From an uncultured Gemmatimonadota bacterium (GTDB lineage: Bacteria; Gemmatimonadota; Gemmatimonadetes; Gemmatimonadales; Gemmatimonadaceae), in NCBI GenBank assembly GCA_902825965.1, contig CADEDA010000018.1, positions 1-61,940 of the forward strand: a stretch of 61,940 bases of DNA, in the 5' to 3' direction. Position 1 is the first letter of the stretch; the number at the start of each line of letters is the position of its first letter. Shown here in pieces: positions 2,859 through 61,244 of this stretch. Position numbers and translations under genes: made by a program. The notes under the pieces were generated by a model that was not told where the DNA came from, did no database searches, and saw only the letters and a program-made list of their open reading frames with translations.

Positions 2859-3794
2859 CTAAGCACCAACCAGCCGCAGCGCCCGCAGCGTAACCAACGC
2901 CTCGTCAACGCGCTCTGGGGCAAAGTGTGCTCTCCCCAGCTTGCCCCGCCATTCTGCTGTTTCCCCAATCGCAGCGCGCACAGCCTCCACCGAGACCTCC
3001 CTCCCCGCCTGGTGAATCTCACGCGCTATAGGAAGCACCGTAGCAAGCACTTCAAGCTTGGGGTCGTCGACGTCTGCCAGCACGGTCATAAGCCGCGCCG
3101 CCGCGTCTGCACTCCGGAGATATCGCTTGCAGTACGTATCAATTGCGCTCGCCTTCTCGGTGACCGATAGCGTGGCACCCTCCACGCGTAGCCATCCCTT
3201 CTTCTTCGCGATCGGCTCGGCATCGCGGTACTTCGCAGCCGAGTCGTACGGACCTAACTGATTGCGGCGGTGGCCATCGAACAAGCCAAGCTCAAGCGAG
3301 CACTCGAGCAGATACGACACCTTCTGCGACGCGAGCCGCGACACTCTCGGTCGCTTCTCCGCCAGCGACCTGACAATCCAGGTGTACACAACGGCTCTCG
3401 AGAAGTCCTTGAACTTTGGCGTTGGTGCCGGCCTTCCTCGCCGCGCGTACTCAAGGTCGGCGCCAAGCCGCTCAAGCTCCGGCGGGCCCTCACGCAGAAT
3501 CATCTCTCGGCCGAAGCTGACCGCTAGGCAGGCATCGCGGACCGCGTCCGTATAGCTGGCGAGATCTTCTGGCGAGAGCGCAACGCTTGCTTCTGCTGTC
3601 TCAGGAGCTGCAGTGCCATCGTCCGTGCCGACAAGCCACGACCAGAACTCAAGCAGCTCCTCGCGAAACTGTGGGTATCTACCCACCCAATCGATAATGT
3701 CGACGTTGCCGGCCGTTCGCTGCGCGGCAACCATCTCCAGTTTGACGACCTCGATTGAACTGTTCATCTGAAATGGTGTGGAGGATTCGAACAT
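2859..3794 (-). CDS. Uncharacterised partner protein of the sigma factor
   Basis: A 311-residue soluble protein with no family I can name. It starts 5 nt after the stop of the sigma-like gene, so the two are translationally coupled; an internal ATG at 3767 is an alternative start. The N-terminus (WVGRYPQFREELLEFWSWL) resembles the receptor-like regions that accompany sigma factors and kinases in these bacteria. The middle contains a basic segment with FDGHRRNQLGPYDSAAKY followed by KKKGWL, a pattern also seen in winged-helix-like tails. No membrane segment or signal peptide. The pair is divergent from the ubiquitin-like operon and may regulate it or belong to it; this is inference. Confidence 0.6.
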   Translation of the reverse strand: MFESSTPFQMNSSIEVVKLEMVAAQRTAGNVDIIDWVGRYPQFREELLEFWSWLVGTDDGTAAPETAEASVALSPEDLASYTDAVRDACLAVSFGREMILREGPPELERLGADLEYARRGRPAPTPKFKDFSRAVVYTWIVRSLAEKRPRVSRLASQKVSYLLECSLELGLFDGHRRNQLGPYDSAAKYRDAEPIAKKKGWLRVEGATLSVTEKASAIDTYCKRYLRSADAAARLMTVLADVDDPKLEVLATVLPIAREIHQAGREVSVEAVRAAIGETAEWRGKLGRAHFAPERVDEALVTLRALRLVGA

Positions 3795-3799
3795 AGCAT

Positions 3800-4588
3800 C
3801 TAGGCGCCGTCTCGCCAGAGGGAATTGAGCTCGGGGTTTTTGCGCAGGCGAGCGAGCGCCTTATTCAGAAGTTTGTGACCATTCGCCTCCGAAATGCGCA
3901 TCACCGAGCAGATCGTGCGAGGTCCGGCACCGGCGATGGGCAGCTGCTCACGGTAGCGCAAGAGGAGTGCCTCGCGCTGCCGCGGCGGGAGTGCGTTCAC
4001 AGCCTGCCAAAGTGCCGCGTCTCGCTCAGTTCGCAACAGGTGGTGAAGCGCCAGCACCACAGAGTCATCCGAGCGCGGGTCGACCACGGACTCCGCCCAC
4101 GCATCTTCATCATCATCACGAAGCTCGCTGCCCAACACTTCGCGACGCTCTTCGTTGTGGAGCTTCCGGCGCACGTCGATGCACTTTGTGCGAAACGCGG
4201 CGCCGAACCGCTCTTCCCAGTAGTGCTTGGTCTCCGCGCCCGCGCGAATCTCGAGAAGTGCGGCTGCGAGGCAACGTTGCCTGAACTCAGTCTGCCGATC
4301 GCGCGCATTCTGTGGGAACGAGGTCCGAGCGATTGATCCGATGATGGGCTCGCAATGCCCGCCCTTCAGGTTGCCCGCGCCATCTGGGTGCCCGAGCAGC
4401 TCCTTCGCCGCCATCTCGAGGAGCACCGTGTCGCGTTCGGCGTACCCCAAGCGCATGAGGTACACGAGGGTCTCCGCAGCTAGCGACGAGCCTCGCTCCC
4501 GCACGAAGGCGAGACGCTGGGTGGAATCCAGCGCCTCTAGGGCCGCAACCTCGGCGGCGGATCTCGGCGGGCGGTTGAGCGCGCTCAT
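3800..4588 (-). CDS. Sigma-70-type regulator (region 2/4-like), divergent from the Ubl operon
   Basis: A 262-residue protein. The C-terminal third looks like sigma region 4: LPPRQREALLLRYREQLP followed by a helix-turn-helix with SVMRISEANGHKLLNKALARLRK. The central part (RTSFPQNARDRQTEFRQRCLAAALLEIR) could be region 2. A 120-residue N-terminal extension is not part of normal ECF factors, and the acidic linker DDDEDAWAE separates the two halves. It is the first gene of a two-gene unit and is transcribed away from the ubiquitin-like operon across a 168-nt gap that holds a large inverted repeat. Its likely role is as a dedicated transcription factor for this island; the target promoter is unknown. 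Confidence 0.7.
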   Translation of the reverse strand: MSALNRPPRSAAEVAALEALDSTQRLAFVRERGSSLAAETLVYLMRLGYAERDTVLLEMAAKELLGHPDGAGNLKGGHCEPIIGSIARTSFPQNARDRQTEFRQRCLAAALLEIRAGAETKHYWEERFGAAFRTKCIDVRRKLHNEERREVLGSELRDDDEDAWAESVVDPRSDDSVVLALHHLLRTERDAALWQAVNALPPRQREALLLRYREQLPIAGAGPRTICSVMRISEANGHKLLNKALARLRKNPELNSLWRDGA

Positions 4589-4596
4589 CTATGAGA

Positions 4597-4711
4597 GTCT
4601 AACCGCGCGCAAGCGGGCAAGGCTCACCCCCCAGGTGTGCAATCTGTTGGACGCTACTGAGCGCGTTCCGACCACAAGGGGGTGAGCCCTCGCCAGCCAC
4701 GCGCGGTTAAC
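4597..4711. repeat. Bipartite inverted repeat between the sigma gene and the Ubl operon
   Basis: The left arm at 4597-4632 and right arm at 4678-4711 pair in two blocks: TAACCGCGCG with CGCGCGGTTA (10 bp, perfect) and GGCTCACCCCC with GGGGGTGAGCC (11 bp, perfect). The blocks are separated by unpaired spacers, and the loop is about 45 nt. It fills most of the divergent intergenic region, so it is a candidate for a shared control site or cruciform. It resembles an attC only superficially. Confidence 0.75.
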
Positions 4712-4756: not shown

Positions 4757-5005
4757 ATGGCAGACGCAGTCGCAGGTGGGCAGAAGGTCGTGATCTTCAT
4801 TGACCAAGCACAGTTCAAGCTCGAGAATCGGCCCTACACGCCGCGGGAGCTGCTGACGCTCGCAGGCGAGGACCCCGCCGAGACAACGCTCGCCCTGAAG
4901 AAGGGCGGCGAGATCCAGAAGTATCCCGACCTCGACGTTCCCATCGAGCTGAAGAACGGGATGCACTTCGTGGTGTTCCACAACGGCCCCACCCCGGTGT
5001 CGTGA
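4757..5005 (+). CDS. Ubiquitin-like modifier, single multiubiquitin-type domain
   Basis: An 82-residue protein matching one beta-grasp domain of the bacterial multiubiquitin family: VVIFIDQAQFKLENRPYTP (first hairpin), a helix ELLTLAGED, then ALKKGGEIQKYPD and the last strand IELKNGMHFVVFHNG. It ends in Gly77 plus a five-residue tail (PTPVS), so there is no terminal diglycine. In the family the tail is expected to be removed by the JAB peptidase, exposing the glycine for adenylation by the E1. It is the first gene of a three-gene operon; its stop overlaps the E2-like start by one base. Many homologues carry several such domains in tandem; this one has only one. Confidence 0.85.
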   Translation: MADAVAGGQKVVIFIDQAQFKLENRPYTPRELLTLAGEDPAETTLALKKGGEIQKYPDLDVPIELKNGMHFVVFHNGPTPVS

Positions 5006-5379
5006 TGTACGGACCGAATCGATTGCTCGCTGACCTGCAGGCCCTCGGACACGCCGCCTCGCTGATTGAGGCGCCGGATGGCACGCCGTTCGTGCTCATC
5101 TCTCCGTTTCTGGTTCCCTGCGGAAAGTTTGCGGAGAGAGAGATCGAACTCGCCCTGCAGGCCACGGCGGACTTTCCGCGAACCGTAGCGTCGGCGATCC
5201 ACGTTCGTGCGAAACCGCAGTTGTTCGACTACTCCGACACCCTCACCAACGTCCGCAACATCACGACCAGCATACTCGGCGTGGACTGGCGCTACTGGAG
5301 TCACAACTTTGGGTGGAGCGAAGAGCGGACCGCGCGCCGACTCACATCACAGATCAACAGGATCTTCGAGAATGCCTAG
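5005..5379 (+). CDS. E2-like ubiquitin-conjugation protein
   Basis: A 124-residue protein in the E2 position of the operon. The C-terminal pattern DWRYWSHNFGWSEERTARRL resembles the W-x-x-W-S-[RH]-x-x-x-W segment that I associate with prokaryotic E2 family E. The only cysteine is Cys39 in a strand (FLVPCGKF), which is not the usual position after the central strand, so a catalytic thioester is uncertain. It starts at the ATG that shares a base with the Ubl stop (TGATG), and its last 8 nt overlap the E1 gene, so all three genes are translationally coupled. The E2 call rests more on context than on a motif. Confidence 0.7.
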   Translation: MYGPNRLLADLQALGHAASLIEAPDGTPFVLISPFLVPCGKFAEREIELALQATADFPRTVASAIHVRAKPQLFDYSDTLTNVRNITTSILGVDWRYWSHNFGWSEERTARRLTSQINRIFENA

Positions 5380-6772
5380 CGAATGGACGGTGGCGATGCC
5401 GGACGTGGTGGCCTTGGAGCTGGCAGACCACCTCCTGCGCCCCGACGGGCAGGAAGACCTCGCCTTTGCTCTCTGGAATCCCTCCGCCGGGACCATTCGA
5501 CGGTCGGCGCTCATCGTCCGTGCCTTGCTTCCATTCGATGGTGAGCGAGAGGTTCACGGCAACGTCAGCTTCTTCCCCGACTACTTCGAGCGCGCCTGCC
5601 GTGAGGCGATGGCCGCTGGTTGCGGCGTTGCATTCCTTCACAGTCACCCGTTTCCAGGCTGGCAGGGAATGAGTCGCGACGACGTTGTCGCCGAGACGCG
5701 AATGGCCGGGGCTGCGCTCGCGCTCACGGGCCTTCCCTTGGTTGGCCTGACTATCGGCAAGGACCACACGTGGAGTGCGCGCGTGTGGGAGCACTCGGGC
5801 GCCGCGGAGGCTCGCCCATCGAAGCGGTGGTGCACGGCTGTACGCGTGGTCGGGCAGAAGCTGCGCGTAAGCTTTGCCGATCATCTCAGGCCACTGCCGA
5901 GCCTTCGCGAGGAGTTTCGGCGGACTGTGGCAATGTGGGGAGATCACAATCACGCACAGCTCGCGCGGCAACGCGTGGGCATCGTGGGACTCGGCAGCGT
6001 CGGGAGCCTCGTGGGTGAGTCGCTTGCGCGGATGGGAGTCGGGGAGATCGTGCTCATAGACTTCGACCGAGTGGAGACGCACAACTTGGATCGTCTGCTC
6101 TTCGCGTCAGCGCGCGATGTGGGTCGGCTCAAGGTGGAGGTTGCTCGCGAGCGGTTGCTCGAGGTGGGCACCGCGGAGTCACTTCGAGTGACGGCCGTTC
6201 CGTATTCGCTCGCCGAGCCCGAGGGCTACCACGCGGCGCTCGACTGTGATGTGCTGTTCAGCTGTGTGGACCGACCGCGCGCGCGACACATCCTCAATCA
6301 CTTCGCCTATGCGCACCTCATCCCGGTCGTCGACGGGGGCATCGCGGCGCGCTACCGAGATGGCGTGTTTCGGGGTGTCGACTGGCAGGTGCAAGTCGCG
6401 GGGCCTGGACGCCCCTGCCTCGAATGTCTCGGCACGTACCGCGTGGACGACGTGTCGACGGAAGAGGCTGGGAAGCTGGATGATCCTACCTATCTGGACG
6501 GATTGCCGCAGGACCAAACGCTCAAGCGCAACGAGAACGTCCTTCCGTATTCGATGAATTTGGCGTCGTTGGAAGTGCTGCAGTGGGTTGGGCTCGTAAC
6601 CGATGCGGCGGGTGGGGCCGGATTCGGCGTGCAGCGGTATCGCTGGGTTCCGGGGATTGTTGAGCAACTCAGCGATACGCGCTGCCGAACGGACTGCGAT
6701 GTCAGCGCTCGGTTGGCGGTTGGCGATTCGCTCTTCAGTCTCAGAAGCGAGCGGGGCAGCGGCATGGTGTGA
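5372..6772 (+). CDS. JAB/JAMM peptidase-E1 (ThiF-type) fusion
   Basis: A 466-residue protein with two enzymes of a ubiquitin-like pathway in one chain. Residues 1-180 are a JAB metallopeptidase with the zinc motif H90-S-H92-P and S101-x-x-D104 (HSHPFPGWQGMSRDD), expected to trim the Ubl tail or remove conjugates. Residues 190-466 are a ThiF/E1 adenylation domain: nucleotide loop GLGSVGS at 207-213, acidic D230 and D232, NLDR at 238-241, and two cysteine pairs (C349/C352 in PCLEC and C438/C442) that look like the structural zinc site. It would adenylate the modifier at 4757-5005 and pass it to the E2-like protein. The start overlaps the previous gene by 8 nt. A decayed paralogue of its E1 half lies at 24115-24868. 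Confidence 0.9.
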   Translation: MPSEWTVAMPDVVALELADHLLRPDGQEDLAFALWNPSAGTIRRSALIVRALLPFDGEREVHGNVSFFPDYFERACREAMAAGCGVAFLHSHPFPGWQGMSRDDVVAETRMAGAALALTGLPLVGLTIGKDHTWSARVWEHSGAAEARPSKRWCTAVRVVGQKLRVSFADHLRPLPSLREEFRRTVAMWGDHNHAQLARQRVGIVGLGSVGSLVGESLARMGVGEIVLIDFDRVETHNLDRLLFASARDVGRLKVEVARERLLEVGTAESLRVTAVPYSLAEPEGYHAALDCDVLFSCVDRPRARHILNHFAYAHLIPVVDGGIAARYRDGVFRGVDWQVQVAGPGRPCLECLGTYRVDDVSTEEAGKLDDPTYLDGLPQDQTLKRNENVLPYSMNLASLEVLQWVGLVTDAAGGAGFGVQRYRWVPGIVEQLSDTRCRTDCDVSARLAVGDSLFSLRSERGSGMV

Positions 6773-6850: not shown

Positions 6851-7039
6851 GTGGACGGCTTGAAGAAGGAGCGCATCAAGAAGCACATCTATCCGAGCCG
6901 AGAGCTCGCCCTTGCGGACGTCGCGACGTACATCAGCGACTTCTGCAACACCACTCGGCGCCACAGCCATCTGAGGGGCGTGAGCCCGGAGCAGTTCGAG
7001 GCCGCAGATCAGCGACGGCGGCGCGCTGTCCACTACTAG
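6851..7039 (+). pseudogene. IS3-family transposase, C-terminal remnant
   Basis: About 62 codons match the end of an IS3-family OrfB: RIKKHIYPSRELALADV, ISDFCNTTRRHSHLRGVSPEQFE. The catalytic core is absent. It lies directly downstream of the E1 fusion gene, so insertion sequence activity has reached the edge of the ubiquitin-like operon. From 6773 to 6850 and 7040 to 7110 I see nothing else. Confidence 0.7.
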
Positions 7040-7110
7040 CTGGGAACTCAAGTCCGAAGATGTGAAGCCACTCCGGGTTGCCAGTATGGCTCGCTGCACC
7101 GGCGCCTCGC

Positions 7111-7146
7111 TTGACAGGGCGAACCCTCCGCTACATGTTGTAGCGG
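7111..7146 (+). promoter_or_regulatory. Promoter and BlaI/MecI-type operator of the blaI-M56 pair
   Basis: A -35 hexamer TTGACA lies at 7111-7116. The perfect palindrome CCGCTACATGTTGTAGCGG occupies 7128-7146 (8-bp arms, 3-nt spacer) and contains the TACA...TGTA core of BlaI/MecI operators. It covers the expected -10 region (about 7132-7139), so binding would block transcription. The regulator gene begins 33 nt downstream, which indicates autorepression. Confidence 0.8.
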
Positions 7147-7178
7147 TGAGTCGGCTTTTCCTTTGCTCCAGGTTTACG

Positions 7179-7586
7179 ATGCGCACCAACCCGCTCCATG
7201 AGCTACGCGGACGCGAACTCGAGACGATGCAGCTCCTCCAAGAGCGGGGAGAGGTCTCGGTCGAGGAAGTGCGCACGGAACTCCGTGGCCCCCGTCTCTC
7301 GCCGTCCGCCGTTCGCACGGTGCTCGCTCGATTGGTCGAGAAGGGGCACGCCAGCGTCAACTCACGCGATGGTCGCAATCTGTATCGACCCCGCCGGGCG
7401 TCTGCCGCAGCGCGCCAGACGGCAGTTGAGCGGGTCGTCACAACCTTTTTCGACGGTTCCTCGATCTCGGCTGCGCTTACCCTTCTCGATCGCGCATCGA
7501 GCGACGAGATCCAGGATTTGGCGGTACGCGAGCGTCTCGAGCGGCTGATCCAGGCTCTGCGCGACCAGGACTCGGCGGGTTCATGA
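7179..7586 (+). CDS. BlaI/MecI-family repressor
   Basis: A 135-residue winged-helix protein: LHELRGRELETMQLLQ, then a recognition helix in SPSAVRTVLARLVEKGHASV, the wing RDGRNLYRP and a C-terminal dimerisation part with SAALTLLDR. This is the normal BlaI/MecI layout. BlaI repressors are cleaved when the membrane metallopeptidase encoded next to them is activated. The gene overlaps the M56 gene by 4 nt (ATGA), and a perfect BlaI-type operator lies upstream. The start at 7179 is chosen because upstream codons run into the promoter. Confidence 0.9.
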   Translation: MRTNPLHELRGRELETMQLLQERGEVSVEEVRTELRGPRLSPSAVRTVLARLVEKGHASVNSRDGRNLYRPRRASAAARQTAVERVVTTFFDGSSISAALTLLDRASSDEIQDLAVRERLERLIQALRDQDSAGS

Positions 7587-9301
7587 GCGACACCGTGCTT
7601 CGGGCGAGCCTAGCGGTCCTTACAACAACGGGGCTGCTCGGGGCGGCGATCCTGCTTGCTCCTCGTCTGAGCGCGGGCCGCGGCGCAGAGACTCGGCATG
7701 CCATCTGGAGCGCAACTCTGCTGCTGCTCCTGCTGGTCCCGCTAGTGGCGTTCACCACGCCCGTGTGGAGAGCGTCCCTCTTTGGAATCGTCGCGCCAGA
7801 CCCTTCGTCAGTTGCCTCGACCATTGTGACCCAGATGATGCCGCCCCCCGGAGCGCTCCCGGCGCTTGGCGACCGCGGCCCCGGTCAGGTCACGATGCCG
7901 GCGACCAAGCTTCCCGCGCGCGCGCCGCTGCAGCTTGGCTCGTTGTTGCTGATGGTCTGGGGCGTCGGGGCACTGGCTGTGTTGGGGCGAGTGACTACGG
8001 ATGTGCTGCGGCTCGTCCGGCTCTCGCGCAGCAGCGCGGGCATTCCTTCCCCGCTCCGACAAGAGGTGCGAGCGGAGGCTTTGCGGCTCGGGCTAGCGCG
8101 GGTACCGCGCGTCCGGCGAGCAAACGTTCGCTCGCCGCTCACCTGGGGCATCCGCGGAGAAGTGCTGTTGCCGATTGGCGCCGAGCGGTGGACGCCGGCC
8201 GAGAGGCGGATCGTCCTGTTGCATGAGCTGGGACACCTACAGCGGCGCGATGCGATCTGGGTGCTCGTGGCGCAGCTGGCATGTGTCATTCACTGGTTCA
8301 ACCCACTGGCTTGGCTAGTATCGGTGCGGCTCCGCCACGATGCGGAGCTCTTGACTGATGCACTGGTGGTCGCGTGCGGCGTGGCCAGATCCGAATATGC
8401 CGAAGGCCTCGTGAGACTCGCCGCTTCCATCGGAGACCCTGCACCGGCGCTCTCGCTCACAGTCGTCGACGGGCCAGCCGGACTCGAGGGGCGACTTCGC
8501 GCCCTCCTTCTCCCAATGCCACCCGGGAAGCGGTCCTGGTGGCATCCCGTGGGCTGGGCGCTTGCGGCTATCGCCGCCATAACCCCGCTGCTCGCCGTTC
8601 GGCCAGCCGCCCCCGCAGCGGAGCGGGCCATCGAAGTGACGCGCGAGGCGGTACAGCTCGATCATGAACCGTTAGCAAGCGCGCTGACGAGTGCGCCGGC
8701 CAGCGAGCCTCTGTGGACCGGCGAGGTCGGCAGCGCACTGCGGGTCTGGACGCGACTCGGCACCGTCGTCGCGCGCACCTCGCCAGACGGGGTTGCTCGT
8801 GTCCGGGGCCGCTGGGCAGACGGCGGCGAGGCGCCGCTTCACCTGGTTCCGAGCTGGGATGAGGGGCGGCGCGTCATTGGAGTCACCGACGCCGCCGGCA
8901 AGGAAGTGACCGGGGCGGTGGTCCTGGTGGTGGATCTGCCGAGCGGGGTTCCGATCCTTGCCTGGGCGGGCAGAGGAACGGTCGATGTAGACGTCGCCTC
9001 GCCGGTCGCCGCCGGGACAGTCACCGGCGACGTCACGGTTCGTACCAGCGAGACCGCCAGCATCTGGACCACGAGAGGCGACATCACCGCCCGGGTCGGC
9101 CGAACGTCTGGGGAAGACCTTCGGATCGTGACGCAGCGTGGCTCCATCGACCTGTGGTATCCCGGCGTCGCGACCGTAACCAAGCTTAGTGACGATGCGC
9201 CTCTAGCGCCTCTCTACGGGAGAACAGGGGAGGCCAAGCGCGTAGGAGATGTGGCGTTGCAGGCATGGATCGGGACGATCACGCTCCACCCGGAACGGTA
9301 A
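7583..9301 (+). CDS. M56-family (BlaR1/MecR1-like) membrane metallopeptidase
   Basis: A 572-residue protein with about four membrane segments in the first 350 residues (e.g. ATLLLLLLVPLVAF and LLLMVWGVGALAVL). The zinc motif H214-E-L-G-H218 sits in VLLHELGHLQRRD, followed by IHWFNPLAWLV, typical of M56. In BlaR1 a C-terminal penicillin-binding sensor follows. Here the tail instead looks like a repeated beta-strand domain of the adhesin/DUF4097 type (GDVTVRTSETASIWTTRGDI, RIVTQRGSIDLWYPG), so the stimulus is probably not a beta-lactam. It overlaps blaI by 4 nt and would cleave that repressor. Confidence 0.88.
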   Translation: MSDTVLRASLAVLTTTGLLGAAILLAPRLSAGRGAETRHAIWSATLLLLLLVPLVAFTTPVWRASLFGIVAPDPSSVASTIVTQMMPPPGALPALGDRGPGQVTMPATKLPARAPLQLGSLLLMVWGVGALAVLGRVTTDVLRLVRLSRSSAGIPSPLRQEVRAEALRLGLARVPRVRRANVRSPLTWGIRGEVLLPIGAERWTPAERRIVLLHELGHLQRRDAIWVLVAQLACVIHWFNPLAWLVSVRLRHDAELLTDALVVACGVARSEYAEGLVRLAASIGDPAPALSLTVVDGPAGLEGRLRALLLPMPPGKRSWWHPVGWALAAIAAITPLLAVRPAAPAAERAIEVTREAVQLDHEPLASALTSAPASEPLWTGEVGSALRVWTRLGTVVARTSPDGVARVRGRWADGGEAPLHLVPSWDEGRRVIGVTDAAGKEVTGAVVLVVDLPSGVPILAWAGRGTVDVDVASPVAAGTVTGDVTVRTSETASIWTTRGDITARVGRTSGEDLRIVTQRGSIDLWYPGVATVTKLSDDAPLAPLYGRTGEAKRVGDVALQAWIGTITLHPER

Positions 9302-19675: not shown

Positions 19676-20719
19676 GCTAGATGTAATTGACAAGGAGGTT
19701 GTTCACAGAGCGTAGCCGTGCGAAGCTGGGGTTGTCGAGACACTCAACTCACAACAACCAGAGGCTCTGTGAACATCCACAAGAATGCACGCTTGACGCC
19801 CGCGGGGCGACTTTAGGCGGTGGCCCGGGTCCGGGCGGGCGAGCCGGCGAGCACCGTCGCGCGGGCGATCAGCGTCTCCCGGCAGACCGTTTACAAGTGG
19901 GTGCGCCGGGAGGATCCGGCCGACGCCGCGTCGTGTGAGGACCGATCGTCCAAGCCGGCGCGCATGCCCACGCGGCTCAAGCGCGCGCGGCGCCGGCAGA
20001 TCGAGCGCCTGCGTCGCAAGCGCTGGAGCAGTCCGCGGATTGCGCGGGAGGTTGGCGTTCCCGTCTCGACCGTCGTGCGGGAGGTCCGCCGTCTCGGCTT
20101 CGCGCGGCTCGAGCGGCTGGCGCCGCCCCGGCCCGTCGTCCGCTACGAGCGCGACTACCCCGGGGAGCTGGTGCACCTGGACATCAAGAAGCTCGGACGC
20201 ATCGGGCAGCTCGGGCACCGCATCCATGGCGATCGCCGCCGGCGCGCGCGCGGCGTCGGCTACGAATACACGCACGTCGCCATCGACGCTCACTCGCGGC
20301 TGAGCTACGCCGAGACCTTGCGAGACGAGCGCGGCGAGACGGCTGCCGGCTTCCTCACCCGCGCGGTCGCCTGGTTCGCCGCGCAGGGCATTCGGGTCGA
20401 ACGCATCCTGACGGACAATGGGAGTTGCTATCGCGCGCTGGTCTTTGCCGAGCGCGCCCTGGACCTCGGCATCAGCCAGCGATTCACCAAGCCGTATCGT
20501 CCGCAGACGAACGGCAAGGCGGAGCGCTTCATCCGAATCCTGCTCACCGAATGGGCCTACGCCCGGCCGTACCACCACTCGCGCTGGCGCACCGCGGCCC
20601 TGTCGCGGTATCTCTCCTTCTACAACACGGTCCGTCCACACGGCGGCATCAACGGTCAGACTCCAGTCGCGCGCCTGCTCACGTTTCTGTGAACAACGTC
20701 CTTGTCATGTACAGCTAGG
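19676..20719 (+). mobile_element. IS481-family element with CTAG-type target site
   Basis: The element runs from TGTAATTGACAAGG (19682) to TGTACA (20713). Its inverted repeats of about 30 bp extend to GTTGTTCACAGA. It is flanked by GCTAGA on the left and GCTAGG on the right, close to the 6-bp NCTAGN duplication known for IS481. The flanks differ at the last base. A second copy ends at position 55 of the window. Confidence 0.88.
19769..20692 (+). pseudogene. IS481-family transposase with an internal amber codon
   Basis: A GTG at 19769 opens the typical IS481 N-terminus (MNIHKNARLTPAGRL). The frame then meets TAG at 19814-19816 and reopens at GTG 19820 for 290 codons. The rest is complete: HTH (VARAISVSRQTVYKWV), DDE motifs in LVHLDIKKLGRI, ILTDNGSCYRA and TNGKAERFIRILLTEWAYA, and YLSFYNTVRPHGGING. 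Translation could restart at 19820 without the first 15 residues, so activity is doubtful but not excluded. Confidence 0.8.
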
Positions 20720-24012: not shown

Positions 24013-24114
24013 CGAACCAGATCATTCATGCCTCGAGTCATGTAGCGTCCGGCGTCGCGAGTGCGCGCCGCGCTCTCGATGCTCGCAGTGGTGATTCCCT
24101 GCTCGGTGACGCTG

Positions 24115-24868
24115 CGTACGCGGGCGCGGATGGGTGTCGAAGAGATCGTACGGATTGACTTCGACCGAGTGGAGACGCACACCTTGAATCGTCTGCTCTT
24201 CGCGTCAGCGCGCGCCGTGGGGCGGCTCGAGGTCGATGTTGCCCGTGAGCGAGTGCTCACGGTGAGCACAGCGGAGTCACTTCGAGCGACGGCCGTTCCG
24301 TACTCGCTCGCCGAGCGCAAGGGCTACCTCGCAGCGCTCGACTGTGACGTGCTGTTCAGCTGTGTGGACCGACCGCGCGCGCGGCACATTCTCGATCACT
24401 TTGCCCATACGCACCTTATCCCGGTCATCGATGGGGGCCGCGCCGCGCGTTACCGAGACGGCGTATTTCAGGGTGTCGACTGGTAGGTGCAAGTCGTGGG
24501 GCCTGGACGCCCCTGCCTCCAATGTCTTGGCACGTACCGCGTGGACCGAGTGTCGACGTAAGAGGCTGAAACATTGGATGATCCCACGTATCTGGACGGA
24601 CTTCCGCAGAATCATTCGCTTAAGCGCAACGAGAACGTCATTCCGTACTCGATGAACGTGGCGTCGCTGGAGGTGCTGCAGTGGGTGGGGCTGGTCACGA
24701 ACGCCGCCGGAGGCGCGGAGTTTGGCGTGCAGCGGCATCGATGGGTGCCGGGGATTGTCGAGCAACTCGGCAATGCGCGCTGCCGCACGGACTGCGATGT
24801 CTGCGCCCGGTTGGCAGTTGGGGATACGCTGTTCACGCTTTGGGGCTCCGACCTCGCCGCGGAGAGGT
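24115..24868 (+). pseudogene. Decayed paralogue of the E1 domain
   Basis: About 250 codons match residues 219-460 of the JAB-E1 fusion at 5372-6772 at high identity (e.g. IDFDRVETHTLNRLLFASAR, FSCVDRPRARHIL, CRTDCDVCARLAVGD). The JAB half and the nucleotide loop are missing. Two in-frame stops break it: TAG at 24484-24486 and a TAA near 24559 (ACG TAA GAG). It lies between an IS remnant and the hipBA operators. No Ubl or E2 gene accompanies it. Confidence 0.88.
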
Positions 24869-24982: not shown

Positions 24983-25357
24983 ATGCGCTCTCTCAGCCCG
25001 AAAGACATCGGCGCCCTCGCCCGTCAGGCGCGCACGGACGCCAACCTCACCCAGGAGGCGCTTGCCGCACTGATCGGTGCGAGTAGGTACTGGGTCGCCG
25101 AGTTCGAACGCGGTAAGTCAGGCGCCGAGCTCGGGCTCACGCTGAAGGCGCTACGGGCGCTCGGACTGACGCTGAGTATCGAATCGAAGTCAAAGCGGAT
25201 TGCAGGGGAACGCGCTGTACCCGAACTCTCAAGCGCGACGGTGCCGCGCTTGAGCCTTTCCCGACTGCTGGAGCAGGCGACGAACCAAGCCAAGCCGCTC
25301 ATCGCCGACGCAGGCATCAAGGGTGGTAGGTACTCGCACCCCAACAGGAAGAAGTGA
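24983..25357 (+). CDS. hipB: HipB-like XRE antitoxin
   Basis: A 124-residue protein. Residues ~5-65 are an XRE helix-turn-helix (IGALARQARTDANLTQEAL, LIGASRYWVAEFERGKSGAE). The tail (GGRYSHPNRKK) is longer than in E. coli HipB. It binds the operators just upstream and neutralises the HipA kinase. Its stop overlaps the hipA start by one base. An upstream frame extension through the operators is not translated sense. Confidence 0.87.
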   Translation: MRSLSPKDIGALARQARTDANLTQEALAALIGASRYWVAEFERGKSGAELGLTLKALRALGLTLSIESKSKRIAGERAVPELSSATVPRLSLSRLLEQATNQAKPLIADAGIKGGRYSHPNRKK

Positions 25358-26679
25358 TGCCTAAGCGCACGCGTCTGACGCGCTCGGCGAAGCCTCGACT
25401 CGTCGCCTTGCTTGATGGTGCTGTCGTGGGCCAAGTCTACCAGTCCGGTAACGGGAGACTCGCCTTTCGCTACGACGCGGAGTGGCAGAGCAGCGCCGAC
25501 GCGTACCCGCTCTCGCTCTCGATGCCACTCGCGGCCACGGAACACAACGATCGCGCCATCCGCGCGTTCCTCTGGGGACTGCTGCCCGACAACCCCGACG
25601 TGCTCGAGTGGTGGGCGCGCCGCTACGGAGTGTCTCGGTATCGCATTGTAGATCTGCTGACGCATGTGGGCGAGGACTGCGCGGGAGCCGTTCAATTCGC
25701 GCAACCCTCGCGAGTCGAGGCGCTATTGGGCAGACCAACCAAGCGCGAGGAGGCGAGGAGCATCCAGTGGATTACTCCCGGCGAGCTCGAGCAGCGGTTG
25801 CGGGAGCTACGGCTCAATCCCGCTGCCGGACGGGCGGCTCAGGACACGGGGCAGTTCAGCTTGGCCGGCGCGCAACCAAAGACGGCTTTGTATGAGGATG
25901 AGGCCGGCCGCTGGGGCATCCCTCAGGGTCGCGTGCCAACGAATCGAATCCTCAAGCCGCCCACGATGGGTCTCGATGACCTCGCGTACAACGAGCACTT
26001 CTGCCTGATGTTGGCGCGTGAGCTTGGACTGCCGGCCGCGCAATCGCGTGTGCAGAAGTTTGGTGAAGAGACCGTCATCGTCGTCGAGCGCTACGACAGA
26101 GCCCGCGTCGACGGTCGGCTTTTGCGCGTGCATCAGGAGGATATGTGCCAGGCACGGGGAGTCCTGCCCACGCGCAAGTACGAGGTGGATGGGGGGCCAG
26201 GCGTCGCTGACATCTGTGAACTCCTGATGGCGTCATCAGCGGAGCCAGAGAGCGATCGGGTACGGTTCATCGAAGCGATGGCGCTGAACTGGCTGCTCGC
26301 GGCATCCGATGGCCACGCGAAGAACTACTCGTTGCTCCACGCGTGGGGTCCGCAGGCTCGGTTCGCTCCACTATATGACGTGATCACCGTGCTTCCGTAT
26401 CCGCAGCTCACCAGCGGACGCAACACGTTGGCGATGAGCATCGGAGGCGAGCGCCTCGTCGAGAAGATCAACGGAGAGCACTGGCGTCGACTTGCGCGCG
26501 AAGTTGGAGCCGCGCCCACAGAGGTGCTGGAGCTGGTATCGTCCCTCGCAAGTAGGCTTCCGCGCGCGGTGGAGGCGCTGGTTGATCGGGAGGATGGCGC
26601 GGCACACGCGAGACCCGCGCTGGCGCGTCTCGCTGCGGCCGTAATCGAGCACTGCACACACAGCGCGAGACGTTTGTAG
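25357..26679 (+). CDS. hipA: HipA-like serine/threonine kinase toxin
   Basis: A 440-residue HipA. N-terminal couple-hipA domain (VYQSGNGRLAFRYDAEW, LSMPLAATEH, FLWGLLPDNPDVLEWWARRYGV), then the kinase domain with FSLAGAQPKTAL (nucleotide loop/lysine), VERYDRARVDG, catalytic ASDGHAKNYSLLH and the metal site PLYDVITVLPY. All key residues are present, so it looks functional. HipA kinases phosphorylate aminoacyl-tRNA synthetases in known cases. It forms an operon with hipB. Confidence 0.93.
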   Translation: MPKRTRLTRSAKPRLVALLDGAVVGQVYQSGNGRLAFRYDAEWQSSADAYPLSLSMPLAATEHNDRAIRAFLWGLLPDNPDVLEWWARRYGVSRYRIVDLLTHVGEDCAGAVQFAQPSRVEALLGRPTKREEARSIQWITPGELEQRLRELRLNPAAGRAAQDTGQFSLAGAQPKTALYEDEAGRWGIPQGRVPTNRILKPPTMGLDDLAYNEHFCLMLARELGLPAAQSRVQKFGEETVIVVERYDRARVDGRLLRVHQEDMCQARGVLPTRKYEVDGGPGVADICELLMASSAEPESDRVRFIEAMALNWLLAASDGHAKNYSLLHAWGPQARFAPLYDVITVLPYPQLTSGRNTLAMSIGGERLVEKINGEHWRRLAREVGAAPTEVLELVSSLASRLPRAVEALVDREDGAAHARPALARLAAAVIEHCTHSARRL

Positions 26680-58428: not shown

Positions 58429-58563
58429 GCCTAACGCGTGCAACTGTAGTGGAAGCTCGTGTGAAAAGGGCTTGGCGGGGCCTCCGCTACTAGCCTAGGA
58501 CATCGCGGCCGCCCCGCCAACCCCATCCGCACCCGCGGCCATCGGCAGCAAGCGTCGTTATGC
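58429..58563 (-). repeat. attC site between the MarR and PhnB-like cassettes
   Basis: Core boxes GCCTAAC (58429-58435) and GTTATGC (58557-58563) match RYYYAAC and GTTRRRY exactly. The arms pair (GGCTTGGCGGGGC with GCCCCGCCAACC). About 135 bp. Orientation on the minus strand: R'' at 58563, R' at 58429. Confidence 0.85.
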
Positions 58564-58679
58564 CGCTATGCGGCCTCGCAGTGTGTGACTCTTGGCACCT
58601 ACACCAGCCGGGTTGCGCGGAGGCGGAAGGCCAGTGCGAGCGGAACTCCTCAGGTCTTCGAGTGAACCGAGCAAGGGCA

Positions 58680-59129
58680 TCAGCCGGCCATGGCCGAGCG
58701 CGAGCGGAGTGCCGCGCGCAGTTGGCGCACGCTCGTCGACAACTGCTCCAAGGCACCGGGCGCTAGCGCGGAGGTGAAGTGGAGGTCCAACTCCTTCGCA
58801 AAGGTCTTCGATGCTGCTGCGAGCAGTCGACGTCCCGCCGCGGTCAGCTCAATCAGGGAGGACCGGCTGTCTTTGGGGTTCGATCGCCGCTGACACCACC
58901 CCGCCGCCTCGATTCGATCGACCAACTTGCTCGTGCCGCCGACCGTGATTGACAGCGCCTCGGCGATGTCGTTCACGCGACACGCAGGCGTGCGCTCGAT
59001 GACCTGCATGGGCTCGAACCAGGAAAGGTCCAGCCCATGCACTTGCCGAAGGCGGGCCTCGACCGCATTCCACAGTTCGGTCTCGTAGCGGATAAGCTCG
59101 CTGAAGAGCTCCGCGGAATCGACCGCCAT
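58680..59129 (-). CDS. MarR-family regulator, cassette gene
   Basis: A 149-residue protein with the winged helix of MarR: FEPMQVIERTPACRVNDIAE, SITVGGTSKLVDRIEAAGWC and the wing RRSNPKDSRSSLIELTAAG. Divergent from a SnoaL-like gene with an 88-nt shared control region. The pair lies inside one cassette. A longer upstream frame crosses that control region and is rejected. Confidence 0.88.
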   Translation of the reverse strand: MAVDSAELFSELIRYETELWNAVEARLRQVHGLDLSWFEPMQVIERTPACRVNDIAEALSITVGGTSKLVDRIEAAGWCQRRSNPKDSRSSLIELTAAGRRLLAAASKTFAKELDLHFTSALAPGALEQLSTSVRQLRAALRSRSAMAG

Positions 59130-59137
59130 GCTTCCCC

Positions 59138-59166
59138 TTGACACAATGCATTCCTTGGAATATACC
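59138..59166 (+). promoter_or_regulatory. Promoter of the SnoaL-like gene with a MarR operator
   Basis: TTGACA (59138-59143), exactly 17 nt, TATACC (59161-59166). The spacer contains ATTCC-TT-GGAAT (59150-59161), an inverted repeat, and a half-site ACATTCC follows at 59178-59184. MarR binding here would block both divergent genes. Confidence 0.65.
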
Positions 59167-59217
59167 TTCCACCTGATACATTCCACGTTATGCACTCGCC
59201 ATCCTGAGGGCAACCCC

Positions 59218-59601
59218 ATGTCGAACCACTCCGATCAGATCCGCGCGCTGCTGACGACCTACGAGAGGGCGCTCAACACCAGCGACGCGGCCCTGGCCGC
59301 CTCGTGCTATACAGCGGATGGGGTCTTCATGCCGACCACTCTACCCACCGCCTCGGGCGACCAGATGCTGACCGCGTACAGCCATGTGTTCGCTGCGATC
59401 CGTCTGCGCGTCACCTTCACGGTTGATGAACTCGTCGTCACCAGCGACCAGTCTGCCTACGCGCTGACGCGAAGCACCGGTGTGCAGACCGTGCTCGCGA
59501 CAAACGGCACCAGTGCCGAGGCGAACCGGGAGATCTTCATCTTTCACCGCGGCGCCGAAGGGTGGAAGATCGCTCGATACATGTTCAACAAGGCCGCGTA
59601 G
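59218..59601 (+). CDS. SnoaL/DUF4440-like protein in a cassette
   Basis: A 127-residue NTF2-fold protein: IRALLTTYERALNTSDAALA, CYTADGVFMPTTLPTASG, FTVDELVVTSDQSAYALTRS, FIFHRGAEGWKIARYMFNK. Members are isomerases, small-molecule binders or of unknown use. It is on the plus strand, antisense to the array, and depends on its own promoter under the MarR site. Confidence 0.85.
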   Translation: MSNHSDQIRALLTTYERALNTSDAALAASCYTADGVFMPTTLPTASGDQMLTAYSHVFAAIRLRVTFTVDELVVTSDQSAYALTRSTGVQTVLATNGTSAEANREIFIFHRGAEGWKIARYMFNKAA

Positions 59602-59698
59602 ACACTCACACCTCGGGCGAGTGATGCGGCTGGACGGGAGGATGCACCGTCCCGTGTGAGCGCTGGCCCTCTGAGGCGTTCGGAGGGGAGTCGGCATA

Positions 59699-59829
59699 GC
59701 ATAAGGTTATGTCGTGGCCGTTCCAATAAACTGCGGCGGCGGGGCCGCCGCGTTCCGTTGATTCTATCCGAGTGGCGGCCCCGCCGCCGCTTCCGCGCAC
59801 ACGGCCATCAGAACCAACCATCGTTAGGT
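59699..59829 (-). repeat. attC-like site after the short cassette
   Basis: Boxes GCATAAG (59699-59705, one mismatch) and GTTAGGT (59823-59829). A strong GC stem (GGCGGCGGGGCCGCC with GGCGGCCCCGCCGCC) lies inside. About 131 bp. Confidence 0.75.
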
Positions 59830-59929
59830 GCCGGAGCGCGCGTTACGCTGCGCACTCTCGATCGTGGCGGCGACGAACTCCGACGGCTGCAAGAACGGGC
59901 CGAGAATACGCAGTCGTGAACCGAAGCGT

Positions 59930-59957
59930 GGCCGTCGGCAGCAAGCGTCGTTATGCG
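59930..59957 (-). repeat. Half attC site after the RibD-type gene
   Basis: GCCGTCGGCAGCAAGCGTCG then GTTATGC is the R''-side arm of an attC. The matching second arm is not found before the next complete attC at 59829, so this site seems truncated. Confidence 0.6.
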
Positions 59958-59961
59958 GCGC

Positions 59962-60591
59962 TCAGGCTCTGACGTAGCGCAGATGGGTTGCGGCCGGTCC
60001 GTTCAACACGCGATCGATGCGGAACCGCGGTCCGGGCTCAGCAATGTTCTCAAAGAGCCGACGCCCGCCGTGAAACAGCACGGGGGCGAGAGCGATCTCG
60101 AACTCGTCGACAAGGTCGCGCTGCAAGTACTGCTGGATGACATCCGCGCCGCCAGCGATACGGATGTCGCGGTCCCCAGCGGTGGATCGTGCGAGTTCGA
60201 GCGCGCGTTCAGGGCCGTCGGTGACGAAATGAAAGGTCGTGCCGCCGGGGCGCGGCCACGGCTCCCGCGTGGCGTGGGTGAGCACGTAGACCGGCGTGTG
60301 AAACGGCGCCTCCTCCGGCCACGCGACTTCGCCCTGGTCGAACATCCGCTTGCCCATGATGTTGGCGCCGATGCGCTCGGTCGTGCTGCGCACGAGGTCG
60401 TTGATCGGCCCGGTCTCTCCGCCTCCGCCGATCTTCAGATTCTCGCGGAAGTACTGCGTGTTCAGGATCCAGGCCATGAGTGCTCCCCACTTCGCTCCCC
60501 AGCCCATGTGGCCAGGATCGCTCATCGTCATGCCCTCGGGCGCGAGGTAGCCATCAAGGCTTAGCCCGATGCTCACAAAGACCTTGCTCAT
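59962..60591 (-). CDS. RibD C-terminal/DHFR-like reductase, cassette gene
   Basis: A 209-residue protein. FVSIGLSLDGYLAPEGMTMS, MGKRMFDQGEVAWPEE, PVYVLTHATREPWP and RDIRIAGGADVIQQYLQRDL match the RibD_C/DHFR-like reductase family, often called deaminase-reductase proteins. NADPH-dependent; substrate unknown. The ATG at 60591 is 30 nt after an attC R' box and the stop lies 5 nt before the next R'' box. Confidence 0.88.
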   Translation of the reverse strand: MSKVFVSIGLSLDGYLAPEGMTMSDPGHMGWGAKWGALMAWILNTQYFRENLKIGGGGETGPINDLVRSTTERIGANIMGKRMFDQGEVAWPEEAPFHTPVYVLTHATREPWPRPGGTTFHFVTDGPERALELARSTAGDRDIRIAGGADVIQQYLQRDLVDEFEIALAPVLFHGGRRLFENIAEPGPRFRIDRVLNGPAATHLRYVRA

Positions 60592-60620
60592 TTGTCCCTT
60601 ACGTGGATGTGTCGGAGTCC

Positions 60621-60757
60621 GCATAACGTTTGCTTCTGCTGCAGCCGCTCCAATAAGAAGGGTTGGGTGGGGCGTCCGCAACCGAGCCTAGGTCACAGAC
60701 GGAAGCCCCGCCCAACCCATCCCCAGCCGCGGCTGTCGGCAGCAAGCGTCGCTATGC
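60621..60757 (-). repeat. attC site between the VOC and RibD-type cassettes
   Basis: Boxes GCATAAC (60621-60627) and GCTATGC (60751-60757, one mismatch to GTTATGC). Pairing arms GTTTGCTTCTGCTGCAGCCGC with GCGGCTGTCGGCAGCAAGCG; inner stem GGTTGGGTGGGGC with GCCCCGCCCAACC. About 137 bp. The VOC stop is inside the R'' box. Confidence 0.85.
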
Positions 60758-61129
60758 GGCGGGCGTTACCGCCCCGAAGGTGAGGCGATGCCCGTCCGGT
60801 GTCCGGAGGGCGAATTCGCGCATGCCCCACGGCTTGCTGCTTGGCGGGGCTTGCAGGCTCGCCCCGCGCGCGCGGAATTCGTCGTACAGGGCGTCAACAT
60901 CGTCGACGGTGACGTACGCGACATAGGAATGGTCGCCCAGGGTGCTCGCTGCCGGCTCGTTGGCGCATTCGCCGAGTCCGACGGCGAAGCCGCCGCGGGA
61001 GAGCCAACTCCAGCCATCGGAACCATCGCCGAAGTCACGCGCGAAGCCGAGGGTCGTCATCCAGAACTCGGTGGAGCGCCGGAGATCTTGGACAGCGAGA
61101 ATCAGCCGGTGTTGGAGGAGCTTGGCCAT
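60752..61129 (-). CDS. VOC/glyoxalase-superfamily protein, cassette gene
   Basis: A 125-residue protein. LILAVQDLRRSTEFWMTTLG, WSWLSRGGFAVGLGE, VTVDDVDALYDEFRARGAS, MREFALRTPDGHRLTFG match the vicinal oxygen chelate fold, close to bleomycin-resistance-like members. Starts 21 nt after the attC at 61150 and stops in the next R''. Confidence 0.88.
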   Translation of the reverse strand: MAKLLQHRLILAVQDLRRSTEFWMTTLGFARDFGDGSDGWSWLSRGGFAVGLGECANEPAASTLGDHSYVAYVTVDDVDALYDEFRARGASLQAPPSSKPWGMREFALRTPDGHRLTFGAVTPAA

Positions 61130-61149
61130 GTCACGAAGTCTTCTGGTTC

Positions 61150-61244
61150 GCATAACGTGGGGCTGTGCTGCGGGCACTCCGTAAGATGCGGCGGCGCAGC
61201 CGCCACTTCCATACCGTGACCGTGCGCACCAACCGTCGTTAGGC
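61150..61244 (-). repeat. attC site between the membrane and VOC cassettes
   Basis: Boxes GCATAAC (61150-61156) and GTTAGGC (61238-61244), both exact. The arms pair through GATGCGGCGGCGCAGCCGCC. About 95 bp. The membrane protein's TAA stop lies in the R'' box. Confidence 0.85.

Follow-up and report, generated by a model that had tools for sequence, protein, structure and literature searches.

A probable Bub-type ubiquitin-like conjugation operon in an uncultured Gemmatimonadota bacterium, with a modifier ending in Val-Ser

Operon type 6e, as it is described in the available text of Iyer, Burroughs and Aravind (2006; PMC1779556), has the same gene order as the locus reported here: one to three repeats of a ubiquitin-like protein (Ubl), a JAB peptidase fused to the N-terminus of an E1, and an inactive E2/RWD-like gene between them. 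Three-gene forms were already noted in that text. Systems resembling type 6e were later named Bub; regulators of the CapH+CapP type have been reported beside Bub operons, and protection against phages has so far not been shown for them (PMC13373217). A search of the literature for BubCD, oxyester or DUF6527 gave no other account, the primary Bub studies (Ye 2026, Gong 2025) lying outside its reach.

The window analysed here, a stretch of 61,940 nucleotides, contains on its forward strand three genes that probably constitute a complete Bub-type (Iyer type 6e) Ubl conjugation operon, belonging to a distinct clade that lacks DUF6527 and whose modifier ends in Val-Ser or Val-Ala, not in glycine. 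This assignment is based on gene content, the homology of all three proteins, the intact JAMM and adenylation residues, the lack of a conserved catalytic cysteine and the conserved tail. The BubA-like modifier gene (4757-5005), with one beta-grasp domain, encodes 82 amino acids ending in HNGPTPVS, and its stop is overlapped by the ATG, at 5005, of a BubB-like E2-fold gene without catalytic cysteine (5005-5379; 124 amino acids). The latter shares 8 nt with the BubCD-like JAB (JAMM) peptidase-ThiF/E1 fusion gene (5372-6772; 466 amino acids), whose frame is open upstream to a GTG at 5207; its start was placed at the ATG at 5372 because relatives support this position.

The initial annotation of this DNA had proposed a Ubl, E2-like and JAB-E1 conjugation operon at 4757-6772, and the three overlapping reading frames bear this out. 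Its description of the first gene as a single-domain multiubiquitin-type modifier, and of a JAB motif (HSHP...S-x-x-D) and a ThiF/E1 domain (GLGSVG, NLDR, two cysteine pairs) on one chain, also proved correct, whereas the 'E2-like' second gene stands as regards its fold but lacks a conserved cysteine. The three-gene form with fused peptidase, which had been considered unusual, is operon type 6e, and since such forms are already noted in the available text of PMC1779556, this layout is not new. The annotation made no mention of three further features: the modifier has a conserved end other than glycine, a DUF6527 gene is absent, and a decayed E1 copy lies at about 24 kb.

The JAB-E1 protein scores 120.9 bits against ThiF (cutoff 28.1), and Citrobacter BubCD is the PDB entry that matches its sequence best, at 1.4e-18 for the protein alone and 1.2e-35 by profile. 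The JAB motif consists of E28, HSHP at 90-93, S101 and D104, with E28, H90, H92, S101 and D104 conserved in relatives, as are the E1 motifs GLGSVG, DFD, NLDR, K254, CLEC and C438/C442 and the adenylation residues G206-x-G-x-x-G, D230, D232, N238, R241, K254 and D300. Cysteines C349/C352 and C438/C442 presumably form a zinc site; the other conserved cysteines of the E1 are C292 and C298, neither of which is invariant across the clade. Judged from the aligned sequences, no catalytic (thioester) cysteine of the E1 is conserved in the clade.

The E2-fold protein alone reaches 19.3 bits against Prok-E2_E, below the Pfam cutoff of 25, and a profile built with its relatives finds Citrobacter BubB at 2.7e-6. 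Its AlphaFold2 model (pLDDT 85) is matched best by BubB in VIA-align (9eae_C; Z 10.8, 114 aligned, rmsd 3.1), ahead of Tsg101 UEV domains (Z 8.5); Foldseek alone also places E2s on top, with E-values that are all non-significant. No cysteine is conserved in the alignments of relatives. Ser99 is the sole invariant column across 14 E2s from this clade and from DUF6527-type operons, and it is kept in 31 of the 33 E2s of a wider set. Its spacing to the following helix suggests the attractive idea that this serine could substitute for the E2 catalytic cysteine; in a weak alignment (probability 2%) of the profile with a human E2 sequence entered by hand, Ser99 does not fall on the catalytic cysteine.

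The modifier on its own scores 14.6 bits against Multi_ubiq, below the Pfam cutoff of 24.5, while this family matches 10 of 11 aligned Ubl sequences (E up to 1, best 6e-18), and a profile built with relatives reaches Citrobacter BubA at 4.9e-6 and the multi-ubiquitin protein 9cd2 at 1e-14. Its AlphaFold2 model (mean pLDDT 80) has the topology bb-a-bbb, and the top Foldseek matches are Ubl/RBD folds and the bacterial multi-ubiquitin proteins 8u38, 9d5b and 9d59, none with an E-value below 0.001. The C-terminus is exactly V-S or V-A in 20 of 25 clade Ubls (24 aligned, plus that of locus L083 read from its printed frame); three more (L008, L076 and L078) carry V-[SA] followed by 4-6 further residues, and the remaining two end in V-V (L081) and F-A (L083). 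A glycine at the conserved end is found in none of the 25, the tail in the window being TPVS, whereas in the eight DUF6527-bearing loci where the Ubl has a gene of its own the conserved end is a glycine (TEG or NPG) followed by a variable extension. The solved BubA construct carries the designation 155-229, and in the C. freundii plasmid relative the NNG glycine is, assuming identical numbering, residue 229. The clade and the DUF6527-bearing operons differ jointly in tail and in DUF6527 content; taking into account that this is essentially one split on the tree, it counts as one observation and not as many. A Fisher test of tail against DUF6527 was disregarded for this reason and because its counts had been assigned by hand.

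Loci with related E1s were gathered from genome contigs (10), from actinobacterial and haloarchaeal plasmids, and from nine further genomes of the window's phylum that belong to the window's class but not to its family. Three-gene operons related to that of the window are found in Bacteroidota, Geobacter, Ignavibacterium and Acidobacteriota, in further members of the window's phylum and on plasmids of actinobacteria. Of the 36 E1s placed in a tree, 16 represent the clade, and a branch with support 100/100 sets these apart from the rest; the haloarchaeal loci adjoin the clade and the DUF6527-bearing operons stand apart. A DUF6527 gene was found neither beside the window operon nor beside any clade member examined. 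Two haloarchaeal plasmid loci (L046 and L053) represent a sister form of the operon, their Ubls ending in KGSGRS and TPGNS. The 179 genomes of the window's own family contain only weaker E1s (best other, 36% identity), so the operon was probably acquired sideways. Among viral contigs, 97 pattern matches included no relative, and phage records gave just two short E1-domain matches and no close phage-borne copies. Several clade members are plasmid-borne and adjoin HTH/IrrE or toxin-antitoxin genes; a stress or immune role would fit this location and these neighbours.

Divergent from the operon, on the reverse strand, lies a sigma-70 family gene (3800-4588), a candidate regulator with a clear region 4 (Sigma70_r4_2, 31.8 bits) and no detected region 2, followed downstream on the same strand by a gene (2859-3794) that would be its candidate partner and matches no family in profile searches. 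Of the 'sigma-like pair' named in the initial annotation, the sigma gene is confirmed but not the partner, and the description of the pair as dedicated to the operon is only conjectural. Between the sigma gene and the operon (4600-4709) there is a mirrored motif, GGGTGAGCC-N11-CGCGCGGTTA, with one copy per strand (z -4.7), the shorter form of which is found nowhere else in the genome beyond these two copies; it is a candidate pair of identical divergent promoters, or it could be an operator. The same palindrome was considered as an integron attC site and rejected by eye, its two outer stems lacking the attC box layout. The sigma pair stands beside no other clade operon examined; counting the window's own genome, the partner gene is present in 3 of 346 genomes of the phylum and a close sigma gene in 1 of 200. 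The sigma factors that neighbour the plasmid operons of M. avium and Nocardioides show no similarity to this pair. The regulators of relatives are usually HTH proteins and IrrE-type peptidases, mostly divergent; one or both adjoin the operon at L044, L078, L081 and L083, and they resemble the CapH+CapP regulators described for Bub (PMC13373217). None of the CapW, CapH+CapP or CapK+CapS regulators, frequent in Bub without defining it, lies beside the window operon, which has the sigma pair instead.

The locus shares with type 6e the Ubl, the inactive E2-like gene and the JAB domain N-terminal to the E1, but the metal-binding gene of that type (C-x3-C-x35-38-H-x2-C) is absent from it, and the V-[SA] tail goes unmentioned in the available text of PMC1779556. 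With Citrobacter BubA, BubB and BubCD it has in common the Ubl, the cysteine-less E2 fold and the JAB-E1 fusion, all of which profiles link to their solved counterparts. However, its JAB-E1 is only 26% identical to the BubCD relative of the C. freundii plasmid. In the plasmid operon, Ubl and E2 are fused in one gene, accompanied by a DUF6527-type gene and by regulators fitting CapK+CapS, whereas in the window the genes are separate, DUF6527 is missing, the four E1 zinc cysteines are kept, the tail reads V-S and a sigma pair adjoins. Bil (BilABCD) and CBASS Cap2/Cap3 follow the same bacterial Ubl or E1-E2-JAB conjugation logic, but in the window a single chain holds both JAB and E1, and the E2 lacks a cysteine; PADLOC matches are limited to the E1 domain, with BilD at only 26 bits. 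As far as could be checked, the V-[SA]-tailed clade without DUF6527 is a variant new to the Bub kind.

Taking into account that the window Ubl has a glycine (G77) five residues before its end and that JAB domains commonly trim Ubl precursors, it could be argued that the JAB domain cleaves at HNG|PTPVS and that conjugation then proceeds through the glycine thereby left at the C-terminus, as in canonical Ubls. This is unlikely, since G77 is not conserved in relatives (RSSTPVA, KSATEVA, RQRADVA, DKKPTPVS), whereas V-[SA] is, and in L008, L076 and L078 the extension comes after V-[SA]. The ThiF-like character of the E1 domain would also be compatible with a sulfur carrier and its activating enzyme, ThiS/ThiF- or MoaD/MoeB-like, serving thiamin, molybdopterin or siderophore synthesis. 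Such a role is highly improbable: the fusion misses the NCBIfam equivalog cutoffs widely (ThiF, 84.3 against 275.25 bits; MoeB, 71.7 against 266), which rules against MoeB/ThiF cofactor synthesis, no rhodanese or biosynthesis genes adjoin the operon, the best PDB match is BubCD, an E2-fold gene lies in between, and the Ubl has no Gly-Gly.

It has also to be considered whether the operon is decaying mobile cargo that has lost its function in this genome. An IS3-family transposase remnant (rve_2; 6851-7039) lies directly downstream of it; a second JAB-E1 copy on the forward strand (24103-24843) is decayed, comprising residues 212-458 only, with an internal TAG and TAA (81% amino acid and 86% nucleotide identity to the intact gene); and on another contig, C8, the partner and the end of the sigma gene recur in decayed form (83% nucleotide identity). 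Nevertheless, the three genes at 4757-6772 all have open frames and overlap in the manner seen in relatives, no catalytic residue is missing, and the two JAB-E1 copies have diverged with a dN/dS of 0.21, which indicates past constraint on the protein; loss of function is thus quite unlikely, although, with IS remnants and a decayed paralogue close by, the locus might be in the course of being lost. The identities of the decayed E1 and sigma-pair copies (86% and 83%) would allow a single duplicated block, as an unproven possibility, and no operon remnants were found in the 19.5 kb of C8 that were read.

Other features were observed in the window. A BlaI/BlaR1-like pair (Penicillinase_R, Peptidase_M56; 7062-9301) is located downstream of the operon, and a HipA-type kinase gene (25354-26679) just after the decayed E1 copy. 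An exact 55-base repeat occurs at 1-55 and 20664-20718. At the right end there is an integron-like cassette array (58429-61244), in which attC-like imperfect palindromes (58429-58563 and 61150-61244) lie between short ORFs of the glyoxalase, MarR, SnoaL and RibD_C families; the 20-mer GGCAGCAAGCGTCGTTATGC is found in the array at 58544, 59937 and 60738.

For the Bub-type operon, the most likely mechanism predicted from these data comprises adenylation at the Ser/Ala end, thioester-free conjugation and removal by JAB. The E1 domain would use ATP to adenylate the C-terminal Ser/Ala carboxylate of the modifier, and the E2-fold protein would dock on the E1 and help to transfer the modifier to its target without a thioester relay, perhaps via the invariant Ser99 or straight from the adenylate. 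The JAB domain would later take the modifier off the target and may also trim the precursor in those relatives whose modifier bears a short extension at its C-terminus. The Bub study of Ye et al. reportedly proposes a non-thioester route, which is taken here as a lead only. Stress probably induces expression of the operon; the divergent sigma factor, acting through the mirrored motif, may mediate this in the present genome, and the HTH and IrrE regulators presumably do so in relatives. It is proposed tentatively, as something possible but short of probable, that across several phyla the modifier is adenylated and conjugated via C-terminal Ser/Ala, not Gly, with neither a thioester step nor DUF6527.

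Ubiquitin-like modifiers are generally considered to require a glycine at their C-terminus. With a clade in which another modifier end is maintained together with a distinct E1, the role of this glycine would become testable, and an E1 and an E2 without catalytic cysteine would do the same for the question of how conjugation proceeds in the absence of that residue, the single-domain, three-gene form being a compact set for reconstitution.
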